Below, one piece after another: positions 29,093 to 33,412 of a stretch of 64,000 nt of DNA. The position numbers and the translations under genes are program-made. Source of the DNA: Leptolyngbya sp. BL0902 (GTDB lineage Bacteria; Cyanobacteriota; Cyanobacteriia; Phormidesmidales; Phormidesmidaceae); assembly GCF_016403105.1 (NCBI RefSeq), contig NZ_CP046155.1, positions 1,550,001 through 1,614,000 of the forward strand, written 5' to 3'. Under the pieces are notes generated by a model, which did not search any database, was not told the DNA's origin, and saw only the letters and a program-made list of their open reading frames with translations. The stretch's first letter is position 1. Every line of letters begins with the position of its first letter.

Positions 29093-30742
29093 TTGGTTGG
29101 GCCACACTCCAGCCAATGCTGTCCTGTCATCCTAGCTCCATCTCGAACCTTGTCTGCTAGTGCCCCTCTGCCGCCGCGTACCCATGCTGGGGGGTGTTCC
29201 GAAAGCCCCCTGAGGTTTCCGCTGGAGGCAGATTCTTCCCCGTCCTACATTCGCTGGTTTACAGACGATCTCCTCTTTCATTACCAGCGCTGCCATCGGC
29301 GGGCTTTTTTAGACATCTACGGAGATCCGAACTGGCAGGATCCGCCCTCCGATTATTTTCTCAAGCTGCGTCAGGACAGTGCTGATCATCGCTCGGCGGT
29401 GCTGCAAACCTTCGAGCCCCTACACCGACCCCAGTTTGCATCGGGGGATTGGGCAGCGGGGGCCAAAGCCACCCTTGCTCTGATGGCCCAGGGAGTAGAG
29501 GCCATTCACCAGGGGGTGCTGGTAATGCCTGCTCCGGTGGAGGGGGTGCAGTTGGTGAGCCAGCCGGATCTCCTGGTGAAGCAGCCCGGTTGGTCTTGCT
29601 GGGGCGACTGGGTCTATGCCCCCATTGACATCAAGCTGGGTAAAAAGCCAAAGCTGGACTACCAGGTGGTCGCCGCCTACCACGCCTACGTGCTATCGCG
29701 GGTGCAGGGGGTGTGGCCCGCCCAAAGCTATTTGGCCCTGCGCGGGGGCCAGCTTTACCCCATCGAGTTAGGGCGGCTGGTGGTCAAGCTCCAGGATACC
29801 CTCAACCATAGCCTGCAAGACCTGCGGGCTCCCCAGCCGCCGGAGTTATTCATTTCCCACAGCCGCTGCGACCTCTGCCAATGGTTTAGCCACTGCTATG
29901 GCGAAGCCAAGGCCCAGCGCCATCTCTCCCTGCTGCCGGGGGTAACGCCTGCTCGCTACGATTTCTTGCGCCAGCACCACATCACCACTGTGGCGGCCCT
30001 GGCCCAAACCTCGCCCCAGCACCTTGCCCCTCTCCCGGGCTTTGGGGATACGGTGGCCGAAAAGCTGGTGCACCAAGCCCAGGCCATGATGGACAACCGC
30101 GCCATCCCCCGCACCAGCCCCCAGGCTCCCCACGGCTTTCCCCTGTGGCCAGAGGATTTGCCAGAGGGTGAATTTGAGCTGTTTTTTGACATCGAGGCGG
30201 CCCCCGACCAAAACTTGATTTACCTCCACGGGGTGCTGGTGGTGAACCGCATCACCGGAGAAGAAACCTTCCATGCCCTGCTGGCCGAAAGCCACACCCA
30301 AGAGCGGCAGGCTTGGCGAGATTTCCTTGATTTGGTTCATGCCTACCCCGATGCCCCGGTCTACCACTTCTGCCCCTACGAAGCCCAGACCGTTCGTAAA
30401 TTAGGGCAAGCCTATGGCACTCCCTATCGCCACATTGAGACTTTGCTCAGTCGCTTTTTTGACGTTCACAAGTGTGTGACGGATGGGGTGACGCTGCCCA
30501 TCGAAAGCTATGCTCTAAAGCACATTGCCCGCTGGATGGGCTTTGACTGGCGCGATGAAGGGGCGAACGGAGCCCAGTCGATCTGCTGGTATAACTCCTG
30601 GGCAGAAACCGGGGATCCGACCTACCTTGAAGCCATCCTGCGCTACAACGAAGACGACTGCCGCGCCACTTACCATGTTAAGGACTGGCTTGTAAAGTTT
30701 GCAGAGCCCTACTGGGAACGCCTCTACGCTACCCACAGATAG
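29093..30742 (+). CDS. TM0106-type RecB-like nuclease with RNase H-like domain
   Basis: The N-terminal half is a Cas4/RecB-like nuclease: SRQ-type DDLLFHYQRCHRRAFLD, a PD-(D/E)xK-like APIDIKLGKK and a cysteine trio C-x2-C-x5-C in HSRCDLCQWFSHCYGE. Together with the early Cys this may hold an Fe-S cluster. A helix-hairpin-helix stretch (LAPLPGFGDTVAEKLV) follows, then a C-terminal RNase H-like exonuclease domain (FFDIEAAPDQNLIYLHG, YHFCPYEAQTVRKL, YNEDDCRATYHV). The family is annotated as a putative nuclease of unknown pathway. Start is uncertain: there is no ATG or GTG near the family N-terminus, only TTG at 29093 or 29150, and the first 45 residues look non-conserved. Confidence 0.78.
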   Translation: MVGPHSSQCCPVILAPSRTLSASAPLPPRTHAGGCSESPLRFPLEADSSPSYIRWFTDDLLFHYQRCHRRAFLDIYGDPNWQDPPSDYFLKLRQDSADHRSAVLQTFEPLHRPQFASGDWAAGAKATLALMAQGVEAIHQGVLVMPAPVEGVQLVSQPDLLVKQPGWSCWGDWVYAPIDIKLGKKPKLDYQVVAAYHAYVLSRVQGVWPAQSYLALRGGQLYPIELGRLVVKLQDTLNHSLQDLRAPQPPELFISHSRCDLCQWFSHCYGEAKAQRHLSLLPGVTPARYDFLRQHHITTVAALAQTSPQHLAPLPGFGDTVAEKLVHQAQAMMDNRAIPRTSPQAPHGFPLWPEDLPEGEFELFFDIEAAPDQNLIYLHGVLVVNRITGEETFHALLAESHTQERQAWRDFLDLVHAYPDAPVYHFCPYEAQTVRKLGQAYGTPYRHIETLLSRFFDVHKCVTDGVTLPIESYALKHIARWMGFDWRDEGANGAQSICWYNSWAETGDPTYLEAILRYNEDDCRATYHVKDWLVKFAEPYWERLYATHR

Positions 30743-30896
30743 CGCTGGGCCTATTGCGCTTCTGGGCTGATGTTGCCCTAGCTTGGCCCACAAGCCAAGG
30801 TGGTCTGGCCCTATCCCAGGCTCATCCTCAGTCCGATGGGCCGTCATACCTAAAATCTGACGTCCTAAGCTTAAGGTTTTCTTTCGTCCTCACCGC

Positions 30897-30926
30897 TTGG
30901 ATTGGATCCAGGCAGCTTTTTATAAT
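30897..30926 (+). promoter_or_regulatory. Promoter of the sqr-like gene
   Basis: TTGGAT (30897-30902) and a perfect TATAAT (30921-30926) are separated by 18 bp. Transcription would begin at about 30933, inside the palindromic operator described next. Confidence 0.6.
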
Positions 30927-30931
30927 TAACT

Positions 30932-30961
30932 CTAATCTTGCAGATTAGTCATACTAATCTG
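30932..30961 (+). promoter_or_regulatory. Overlapping palindromic operator upstream of sqr
   Basis: Three half-sites alternate: CTAATCT (30932-30938), AGATTAG(T) (30942-30949) and ACTAATCTG (30953-30961). Neighbouring pairs form perfect inverted repeats with three-base centres: CTAATCT-TGC-AGATTAG and CAGATTAGT-CAT-ACTAATCTG. The site covers the predicted transcription start, a classic repressor position. The half-site style fits ArsR/SmtB-type sensors, which include sulfide-responsive regulators, but no regulator gene is adjacent. Confidence 0.7.
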
Positions 30962-30987
30962 TTTATTTTCCTATCTTGCAGGTTTCC

Positions 30988-32310
30988 ATGACAACCTCCT
31001 CCAACCTGGTTTCCAGTCTCGCAGCGAACCTAGACTCCGACGGCCCACGTCAAACCCTACGCCACCACATTGTGGTCATCGGCGGTGGAGCGGCGGGGAT
31101 TACGGTGACGGCCCAACTGCTCCAACATAACCCCGACCTAGACATTGCCATTATCGAACCCTCGGCGCAGCACCACTATCAACCGGGCTGGACGCTGGTG
31201 GGCGGCGGGGTCTTTCGCCTGGAGGACACCACCCGCGATGAGCAGACTCTCATTCCTAAGGGCAGCACCTGGATTCAGGATGCGGTGGTCAAGCTCGACC
31301 CAGATCACAACACGGTGCTGACCCAGGATGGCCAACACATTCAGTATGAGTTTCTGGTAGTCTGTCCCGGCATTCAGATCGACTGGCACAAGGTCAAGGG
31401 GCTCCCAGAAGCCCTGGGCAAGAATGGCGTTACCAGCAACTACCGTCGCGATCTCACCCTTTATACTCGCCAATTGATTCAGGAGGAGTTCACCGGGGGG
31501 ACGGCTGTTTTTACCTATCCCAACACGCCGATTAAATGCGGCGGGGCACCCCAAAAGATTATGTACATGGCCGATGATGCCTTCAAACAACGCAGCGGCG
31601 TTGGGGTGAATAGCCGGGTGCTGTTTTGTACAGCGGGGGGATCTATGTTTGGGGTTAAGGCTTACTCCGATTCCTTAGATAAAGTGGTGGCCCGACGCGG
31701 TATCGAGCCCCACTTTCACCATAATTTGGTAGAAATTCGGGCCGACGCCAAGGAAGCGGTCTTTGAGGTCACGCAGGGGGGCGAAACGGTGCAGCGGGTG
31801 ATTCCCTACGCCATGATCCATGTGGTGCCGCCCATGAGCGCCCCCGACTTCATCAAAAATAGCCCCCTGGCGGTGCCCAACAATCCGGGCGGATGGGTGG
31901 ATGTGGACAAAGACACCCTGCGCCACCATCGCTACCCCAACGTCTTCTCCCTGGGCGATGCCTCGTCTCTGCCCACCTCCAAAACGGCGGCGGCGGTTCG
32001 AGGTGAGGCCCCTGTCCTCGTGGCTAACCTGTTGGCGGCTATCCAGCAGCAACCGCCTCAACAAACCTACGACGGCTATACCTGCTGCCCGCTGATTACG
32101 GGATATAACAGCACTATCATGGCCGAGTTTGACTACCAAAACCGTCCCCGGTCTAGTTTTTTGATCAACCCCACCAAGGAACGCTGGAGTATGTGGCTGG
32201 TGAAAAAACACCTGCTGCCCCGGCTGTATTGGGAACGGATGCTGAAGGGGAAACCCTTTGAAGGAGAACGGCTGAAGCCTCTCCAGGGCGTGATCGGCTA
32301 CAAGGGTTAA
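30988..32310 (+). CDS. sqr: Sulfide:quinone oxidoreductase-like flavoprotein
   Basis: The protein is a two-dinucleotide-binding flavoprotein of the SQR family. It has FAD-binding VVIGGGAAGITVTAQLL, the YQPGWTLVGGG segment and TYPNTPIKCGGAPQKIMYMADD with the family's catalytic Cys near residue 170. The C-terminal FAD contact is in NVFSLGDASSLPTSKTAAA. SQR oxidises sulfide to polysulfide and passes electrons to the quinone pool; the enzyme sits on the membrane face through its amphipathic C-terminal helices (KHLLPRLYWERMLKG). The sequence fits type II SQR, which in cyanobacteria may serve sulfide or persulfide detoxification. ATG 30988 is preferred to TTG 30976. A strong promoter and palindromic operator precede it, implying tight induction. 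Confidence 0.85.
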   Translation: MTTSSNLVSSLAANLDSDGPRQTLRHHIVVIGGGAAGITVTAQLLQHNPDLDIAIIEPSAQHHYQPGWTLVGGGVFRLEDTTRDEQTLIPKGSTWIQDAVVKLDPDHNTVLTQDGQHIQYEFLVVCPGIQIDWHKVKGLPEALGKNGVTSNYRRDLTLYTRQLIQEEFTGGTAVFTYPNTPIKCGGAPQKIMYMADDAFKQRSGVGVNSRVLFCTAGGSMFGVKAYSDSLDKVVARRGIEPHFHHNLVEIRADAKEAVFEVTQGGETVQRVIPYAMIHVVPPMSAPDFIKNSPLAVPNNPGGWVDVDKDTLRHHRYPNVFSLGDASSLPTSKTAAAVRGEAPVLVANLLAAIQQQPPQQTYDGYTCCPLITGYNSTIMAEFDYQNRPRSSFLINPTKERWSMWLVKKHLLPRLYWERMLKGKPFEGERLKPLQGVIGYKG

Positions 32311-32385: not shown

Positions 32386-33081
32386 CTAGAGGAGGGCGGG
32401 GGCGGCGCGGAGGGCGTCTAAATCGAGGGCCTGGAGTTGGGCGTAGGCGTTGTCGATGGTGCGCTGGCCACGCAAAAATCCGGTGTTGGCGGCGGGGCAG
32501 AGGTGGGCCAGGGTCTCTGGGCTGAAGCGGGTGCGGAGGGCCTCGACTTGGCAGAGATGGCGGGGCCAGTGGAAGGTTTTGGAAAAGCGCAGGGGTTCAG
32601 GGTGGCCTTGGCGGTTGGGCAGCAGGTGGCGGCCACTAAACAGCACGCCGCCGTAGCACCCATAGTAAACACAGGCAGAACCGGGGGAATAGCCGGGGGT
32701 CCAAAGGACTTCTAGGTGAGGGGTCAGACTCAGGCTACGGTGAAACGTGGTTTTGGGCGTATCGGGCAACAGATAGGCTTCCTGTTCTTGAATCACCACC
32801 TCGCAGCCCAGGTGCTTTTGCAGGGCGGCAGCCTTGCCCAGGGCGGTACGATGGGTGATCGCCAGCCACCGCACTCCTCCCTGCTCCGCCAGAAATTGCC
32901 GGGTGGTTTCATCCCAGGGGGGTGTATCCACCAGCAGATTTTGTGCCCGCCCCTGGGAGTCCTTCTCTACAATGAAGTAAGCGGTTCCCCCCAGGGTGTC
33001 CCGATTGGGTGCAAAGGCGTAGATGCTTTCAAACACGGAACGCGGCGGCTTGGAGACTGGGGACGAGGGGGAGAAAACCAT
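32386..33081 (-). CDS. Metallo-beta-lactamase-fold protein with degenerate metal site
   Basis: The protein has MBL-fold landmarks: GGTAYFIVE, LLVDTPPW, WLAITHR, a later WTPGYSPGSACVYY and GVLFSGRHLLP. The HxHxDH zinc motif is replaced by ITHRTALGKAAAL, so catalysis through two zinc ions is unlikely; it may bind one metal, or be a non-enzymatic relative. The frame is open from 33315, but the MVFSPSSPVS methionine at 33081 is the first start with protein-like sequence, giving 231 residues. No signal peptide is present. It converges on sqr with 75 bp between, which is suggestive because many persulfide dioxygenases are MBL proteins, but the missing ligands argue against that activity. Confidence 0.7.
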   Translation of the reverse strand: MVFSPSSPVSKPPRSVFESIYAFAPNRDTLGGTAYFIVEKDSQGRAQNLLVDTPPWDETTRQFLAEQGGVRWLAITHRTALGKAAALQKHLGCEVVIQEQEAYLLPDTPKTTFHRSLSLTPHLEVLWTPGYSPGSACVYYGCYGGVLFSGRHLLPNRQGHPEPLRFSKTFHWPRHLCQVEALRTRFSPETLAHLCPAANTGFLRGQRTIDNAYAQLQALDLDALRAAPALL

Positions 33082-33412
33082 AGGACGCGATAGGATTTGA
33101 CTCGGCGGCAAACGTTGGGGACGGCGCAGACGGTGGGTTGTTGGGTAGGATGCTGATCTTAGCGGTTGGTGTACCCCTTTCCCCAATCCTACCTTGGTCT
33201 CGACCGCTACCGATCCGTTATTGATGCTGTCCCTGTCCTCCTTGGCCTGAATCGCTGCCGCTGCGGGTACCGGATCAGTCATGCCCCCATGCCCCATCCC
33301 AAAAACGCCCGTCACCGGAGGTCTTGATACCAGATCGTCACTCGATTGTGGGTGTCCTCAGCCCCCCTGGGCGGTATAGATTGTCCCCCTGCCTCGGTTG
33401 CCCCTGCTGTTC
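33082..33412. other. Divergent intergenic region, 331 bp
   Basis: This lies between the MBL-like gene and the site-2 protease gene. It holds an 8-bp inverted repeat, GGTAGGAT near 33145 and ATCCTACC near 33187, too widely spaced to interpret. No promoter pair or RNA is clear. Confidence 0.3.

Follow-up and report, generated by a model that had tools for sequence, protein, structure and literature searches.

A candidate three-half-site operator over the sqr promoter of Leptolyngbya sp. BL0902

Three short arms of alternating orientation stand in front of a sulfide oxidase gene in Leptolyngbya sp. BL0902, and they raise the question of what they are for: are they bound by a regulator and, if so, by one of the ArsR type, or do they act as RNA, or have no dedicated function? 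We addressed this in a 64 kb stretch of the genome (contig positions 1550001-1614000), which is called the window here and whose own numbering is used for the promoter. The gene, sqr (30988-32310, plus strand), was identified by similarity as encoding a type II sulfide:quinone oxidoreductase of 440 amino acids. Its residues 26-421 match chains of human mitochondrial SQOR, the best solved relatives, at an E value of about 1e-120, and other sulfide-quinone reductase chains match at 3.7e-17 (3hyv) and about 1e-10 (3szw and its kin). The similarity to type II enzymes is full-length, while comparison with NCBIfam gave below-cut-off matches alone. Cyanobacterial SQRs are of types I and II, according to passages of an earlier study (PMC7042703). 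Of the 63 genomes of the order, 7 have an sqr match, which in one genome is split into two fragments. Phormidium sp. FACHB-1136 (L010, 86-87% identical) and Leptolyngbyaceae M65_K2018_010 (L011, 77%) carry the sqr genes nearest to that of the window, with L003/L010 and L004/L011 counted as duplicates. A minus-strand frame at 32386-33315, convergent with sqr, weakly matches metallo-beta-lactamase at a score that falls short of the Pfam cut-off.

We found that the arms and spacers are just as the initial annotation had described them. Half-site 1 is CTAATCT (30932-30938), half-site 2 is the inverted AGATTAGT (30942-30949) and half-site 3 is ACTAATCTG (30953-30961), all read from the plus strand. 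The first two form an inverted repeat, IR1 (CTAATCT-tgc-AGATTAG), with 7 of 7 pairs and its centre at 30940, and the last two form another, IR2 (CAGATTAGT-cat-ACTAATCTG), with 9 of 9 pairs and its centre at 30951; both spacers are three bases long. The middle arm is common to the two repeats, whose centres lie 11 bp apart and hence in helical phase, and the whole can be rewritten as CTAATC-N5-GATTAG-N5-CTAATC with an 11-base period. The array starts six bases past a TATAAT, and the sequence upstream of sqr reads ...TTTTTATAATTAACTCTAATCTTGCAGATTAGTCATACTAATCTGTTTATTTTCCTATCTTGCAGGTTTCCATG. An extent of 30897-30961 had been proposed; the array itself accounts for 30932-30961, and starting at 30897 adds 24 bases that precede the TATAAT and lie outside the array. 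Further along the leader a direct repeat, ATCTTGCAGGTT (30973-30984, plus strand), matches ATCTTGCAGATT (30935-30946) at 11 of 12 positions and overlaps the probable ribosome-binding region.

The array is genuine and above chance. It is the only three-armed array in the 64-kb window, where it is counted in two registers. An alternating triple, defined by exact 6-base arms and spacers of 3-8, arose in 1 of 20,000 shuffles of the region; when the entire window was shuffled 20 times, three of the results had one somewhere. Dinucleotide shuffling of 30861-30987 produced an exact repeat with arms of at least nine bases in 4 of 2000 trials. When one mismatch or none was allowed, the array was present in one of the 63 genomes of the order, namely this one, and the motif search returned no second copy elsewhere in its own genome. 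This rarity is consistent with an explanation without dedicated function, according to which a templated (quasi-palindrome) mutation perfected an imperfect palindrome, so that the perfection is an accident of one strain. The imperfect versions that occur at equal offsets in the two relatives would agree with it, but the half-site positions are conserved above the rest of the leader and the array is placed exactly on the promoter, and we consider such an accident improbable.

The perfect TATAAT at 30921-30926 (plus strand) that the initial annotation had named is there, without a recognisable -35, and a consensus scan of 30700-31100 listed no plus-strand sigma-70 promoter. For want of a good -35, the transcription start placed near 30933 had to be guessed from the -10 hexamer. 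The -10 region, TATAATTA, is identical in the aligned FACHB-1136 sequence and has TATGAT in that of M65_K2018_010. Upstream of it, conservation points to a possible activator site, the box AAGCTTAAGGTTTTCTTTCG (30867-30886, plus strand), in which CTTAAG-N5-CTTTCG, with a period of 11, occupies 30870-30886. Between the window and FACHB-1136 no part of the promoter is better conserved: the box is identical at 20 of 20 positions and equally distant from the -10. M65_K2018_010 has a similar word, with an indel of one base, and box-like 11-base direct repeats also occur in the sqr promoters of four distant cyanobacterial loci (L013, L018, L020 and L021). When the box was scored across 48 cyanobacterial upstream regions with a consensus written after inspection of the window, FACHB-1136 and some distant loci, 0 of 200 shuffles did as well as the window, FACHB-1136, L018 or L021, 4 of 200 matched L013 and L020, 26 of 200 matched M65_K2018_010, and the score was unremarkable in the remaining 41 regions. 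This set omitted the duplicates L003 and L004, the incomplete L007, L008 and L044, and the loci from L052 on, which are mostly from other phyla, except L062, L065 and L077. A search for the box CTTAAGGTTTTCTTTCG in the three genomes gave one weak place each in the window genome and M65_K2018_010; FACHB-1136 has two additional places, of which one precedes an SBF-type transporter frame and the other is intergenic. An 11-base direct repeat upstream of a -10 that lacks a -35 recalls the sites of OmpR/PhoB-type activators, and this analogy suggests that an activator of that type might act at the box. The candidate box may carry more weight for the control of sqr than the palindrome does.

We wanted to see what the two nearest relatives have preserved of this arrangement. 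The surroundings of sqr in FACHB-1136 are unrelated to those in the window, compared over about 17 and 21 kb on the two sides; among the frames of at least 100 aa in 40 kb, sqr alone matches a window frame at the corresponding place, and one other frame matches a distant window frame with 44% identity over 193 aa. The sqr gene of M65_K2018_010 sits on a 4.6 kb contig between glgC-like and methyltransferase-like frames (named by eye). Since the alignment of the window with FACHB-1136 is gapless from the CTTAAG box to the ATG despite three different neighbourhoods, sqr seems to form a shared unit with about 120 bp of control DNA. Within this unit the half-site cores (positions 11-16, 22-27 and 33-38, counted from the first T of TATAAT as 0) recur ungapped at an equal distance from the -10, with 13 of 18 bases kept in FACHB-1136 and 13 of 18 in M65_K2018_010, against 9 of 28 other leader positions that agree with the window in each. 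Permutation of the relatives' leader letters reached the observed agreement in 0 (FACHB-1136) and 3 (M65_K2018_010) of 20,000 trials. Fisher tests on the cores gave 0.03 and 0.006 against a wider background, in which 27 of 62 and 22 of 62 positions agree, respectively; on the full arms they gave 0.26 and 0.05. Between FACHB-1136 and M65_K2018_010, 11 of the 24 arm bases agree, as do 19 of the 62 remaining positions. The conservation test lends support rather than proof, because the core positions were picked after viewing the alignment. The earlier proposal of a DNA operator over the start region is nevertheless supported, as the half-site positions are kept in both relatives.

The symmetry of the array has fared differently from its positions. 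The relatives retain 3 of 7 (FACHB-1136) and 5 of 7 (M65_K2018_010) pairs of IR1, and 5 of 9 and 4 of 9 pairs of IR2, respectively; both lack the perfect palindromes. This pattern fits a regulator whose half-sites are loosely kept, with an unusually perfect version in the window strain. It also bears on whether the arms work as RNA, with arms 1-2 and 2-3 as mutually exclusive hairpins and arm 3 able to pair with the ribosome-binding region, in the manner of an attenuator, a translational switch or a stabilising 5′ hairpin. The window leader does fold well: from 30933 it reaches -11.2 kcal/mol (z -3.3 and -2.9), and from 30925 arm 1 is predicted to pair with arm 2, and arm 3 with the GCAGGUU before the ATG (z -2.7). 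A terminator-like call covers 30940-30962, but its stem has 3 G-C pairs, and arm 1 would be only partly transcribed from a start near 30933. The FACHB-1136 leader (L010 2947-2965) has a different palindrome, AATGCTAgtgatTAGCATT, whose 7-pair hairpin is centred three bases off IR1 and is equalled by 34 of 3000 shuffles. Yet the relatives' leaders fold no better than shuffles (z -0.14 in FACHB-1136 and +0.95 in M65_K2018_010), and conserved mutually exclusive stems, as expected of an attenuator, were not found in either. No Rfam family was recognised in the region, the sole match (E 0.77, far under the gathering score) being on the other strand and upstream. An RNA element is therefore decidedly doubtful; the predicted fold would be a possible switch in this one strain. 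Because the half-sites recur ungapped without the perfect palindromes and the RNA folding is not conserved, a DNA operator is favoured over a hairpin.

A DNA operator could serve several kinds of protein. One is a LysR-type regulator (CmpR/NdhR-like) or another tetramer, which might use the array to activate or to repress. IR2 includes TTA-N7-TAA, which resembles the LysR consensus, and in the alignment the window, FACHB-1136 and M65_K2018_010 share the looser TNA-N7-TNA at one and the same position; among related sequences, however, a match of four to six fixed bases is weak evidence. By eye, we recognised no regulator among the neighbouring frames. A site over the transcription start is also atypical for activation. 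We regard a LysR-type or other tetrameric regulator as distinctly unlikely.

The initial annotation had expected release by an ArsR/SmtB-type or persulfide-sensing regulator encoded elsewhere. The genome has five HTH_5 hits, none of them within the window (1550001-1614000). Four are ArsR/SmtB genes (L090, L091, L092 and L093); the fifth, L094, in which several winged-helix profiles outscore HTH_5, is presumably SufR. The nearest HTH_5 gene is about 38.5 kb from sqr, beside an arsenite exporter-like gene (by eye). L091 precedes a putative arsenite exporter frame and L092 is divergent from a metallothionein-like gene with an SmtB-like palindrome between the two (both by eye), neighbours that suggest arsenite and metallothionein control and so speak against a role at sqr, as do the L090 promoters of ten genomes, in which we saw no array-like motif by eye. 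The foremost candidate is L093, an orphan ArsR protein with four cysteines (C1:2244311-2244655; hereafter P0002). When the four ArsR/SmtB proteins were compared by tblastn with 89 sqr-match loci, duplicates included, nine loci had matches and P0002 was best in seven. These copies lie within about 1.5 kb of sqr, with 60-72% identity in six cyanobacterial loci and 53% in the seventh, and their number is an underestimate, given the trimming of loci to about 3 kb and the shortness of some contigs.

We then have to consider whether the sqr promoter of the window carries the kind of site that goes with these genes. All seven sqr-near ArsR genes have an upstream word within six mismatches of ATATTACTATATAGTAATAT, and so do the seven sqr promoters. 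Across the 48 cyanobacterial sqr upstream regions such a word was found in 22, against 2.4 expected from letter shuffles, and a word within three mismatches in 11, against 0.02 expected; examples are L013, L017-L022, L027, L030, L032 and L033. As judged from these counts, the ATATTACTATATAGTAATAT-type ArsR palindrome is a candidate for a widespread cyanobacterial sqr operator. It is, however, absent from the sqr promoters of the window, FACHB-1136 and M65_K2018_010, whose best words have 8, 10 and 8 mismatches of 20, respectively. P0002 carries ATACTACTTCAAGGTTATAT in its own promoter, at C1:2244766-2244785, a site that is likely autoregulatory. The corresponding pattern, ATAnTAC-N6-GTAnTAT, scores 10-11 of 12 at -114 to -139 in all 14 P0002 loci of at least 82% identity (its own included) and 7 to 12 in the other 16 of the 30 fetched loci, against a best of 8 of 12 in the sqr promoter of the window (30700-30990). 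In its strict form the pattern was found in the genome at the P0002 site, which is exact by construction, and at one place inside a frame, and fell below the control (1 versus 5, plus strand). Furthermore, the 14 close P0002 copies belong to 14 of the 63 genomes, 4 of which have an sqr match, indicating that P0002 is not tied to sqr in the order, and M65_K2018_010 has no close P0002 (best 42%) although it keeps the half-sites. IR2 does loosely resemble the P0002 site type (AGATTAGT-N3-ACTAATCT versus ATATTACT-N4-AGTAATAT), and this, together with the four cysteines and the relatives that lie near sqr in seven cyanobacterial loci, is what could be said for binding by an ArsR/SmtB-type persulfide or arsenite sensor, above all P0002, which we hold to be very improbable. 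Given the missing P0002 site type at the window sqr, the lack of a close P0002 in M65_K2018_010, the loose association of P0002 with sqr and the absence of an L090 motif, an ArsR reading of the array is unlikely, though its site could have drifted.

A regulon could point to the regulator, and a genome-wide search for the same motif had been proposed together with a search for ArsR/SmtB genes that carry it in their own promoters. Neither led to a regulon. AGATTAGT-N3-ACTAATCT with up to three mismatches occurs at 5 places in the genome, the same number as for the control, and the four places other than the array are all inside stop-to-stop reading frames. GATTAG-N5-CTAATC with one mismatch has three further places, and CTAATC-N5-GATTAG has six. 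We read none of these 13 other near-matches (4 + 3 + 6) as directly upstream of a regulator gene, ArsR/SmtB genes included. Three of them do have regulator-like frames in the vicinity, as named by eye: an XRE-like HTH frame is about 0.8 kb away from C1:750650, which itself falls within another frame; C1:3833046 falls in the frame downstream of a response regulator; and a cyclic-nucleotide-binding (Crp-like) frame has C4:75694 at its 3′ end. The three-arm pattern with three mismatches gave two more places, of which one falls within a frame and the other precedes a polysaccharide-synthesis-like frame, besides an overlapping self-match at the array; it gave one place each in FACHB-1136 and M65_K2018_010, away from sqr. 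The motif searches thus returned no further strong copy of the array in the genome. Backwards controls, which amount to the same pattern in the three-arm searches or to the other repeat orientation in the two-arm N5 searches, are uninformative because CTAATC reversed is again CTAATC. Other known sensors were considered as well. Each of the three genomes has one CsoR-type regulator gene, and no array precedes that of this genome; by eye, the array did not fit the consensus of Fur/PerR or NtcA sites.

Taken together, the most likely function of the array is that of an operator. More specifically, we see about an even chance that it is a promoter-overlapping DNA operator for a dimeric regulator encoded elsewhere that is not of the ArsR type, as the position and the conserved half-sites suggest. 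The three half-sites (CTAATC, GATTAG and CTAATC), one helical turn apart, would lie over the transcription start of sqr, where a dimeric regulator, encoded elsewhere and distinct from the sqr-associated ArsR type, would most likely bind them. Once bound it would block RNA polymerase and so repress sqr. Two dimers could share the middle arm or compete for it, and the -10-only promoter may need an activator bound at the conserved CTTAAG box. A parallel is seen in L013 and L021, where a similar box is followed downstream by an ArsR-type palindrome; it holds in two of the four loci, because in L018 and L020 the ArsR-type site is upstream of the box. A dedicated regulator with one perfect site and a global one with loose sites are equally possible.

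A broader scenario would be that this lineage swapped the usual ArsR control of sqr for a non-ArsR regulator on a three-half-site operator, where two dimers compete for the shared arm to give a graded or a two-state switch, and that box, -10, array and gene move between neighbourhoods as a unit with the regulator encoded in trans. We put this forward as speculation that is probably wrong in its full form. An sqr promoter without the ArsR site that is common elsewhere offers a defined and testable case of regulatory rewiring, whether of sulfide detoxification or of anoxygenic photosynthesis. Should the array be no more than a strain-specific palindrome, it is of little consequence. In the open-access literature we found, among the matches listed, no study of cyanobacterial sqr promoters beyond the ArsR-type genes near sqr, and the array string, in two spellings, was in no paper of the literature search.

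Among the closest known systems is the ArsR-type control of other cyanobacterial sqr genes, by a regulator named SuoR. As in these, the window has a palindrome in the promoter region of a sulfide oxidase gene, and as in L013 and L021 a box-like word stands upstream of it; unlike these, its sqr has no adjoining ArsR gene, its half-site is CTAATC in place of ATAnTAC-N6-GTAnTAT, and its arms number three rather than two. According to passages of PMC5061849, arsR genes accompany both sqr1 and sqr2 of Geitlerinema PCC 9228 as well as the plasmid-borne sqr operon of Synechocystis, and 27 cyanobacterial sqr genes lie near arsR-like regulators. Another cyanobacterial protein, the ArsR-SmtB redox sensor RexT of Nostoc PCC 7120, likewise has a palindromic site, given as ATTCG-N15-CGAAT in an excerpt of PMC8960804; this sequence was not seen by eye at the array. 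Among sensors of sulfane sulfur, PerR acts on prxI, as stated in part of PMC9952342. Two further systems resemble the array in their geometry. The TetR-family protein DarR binds overlapping palindromes as a dimer of dimers, in the portion of PMC10636190 that describes it; the palindromes of the window also overlap, whereas the DarR sites comprise four half-sites of other sequence and the targets are unrelated. For CodY, the relevant passages of PMC10415144 report 15-nt sites with a 6-nt overlap (24 nt in all) to which two dimers bind cooperatively. The sequence of the window array differs from those sites, but as far as those passages describe them, the two arrangements are alike in having two candidate dimer sites that overlap in one half-site.
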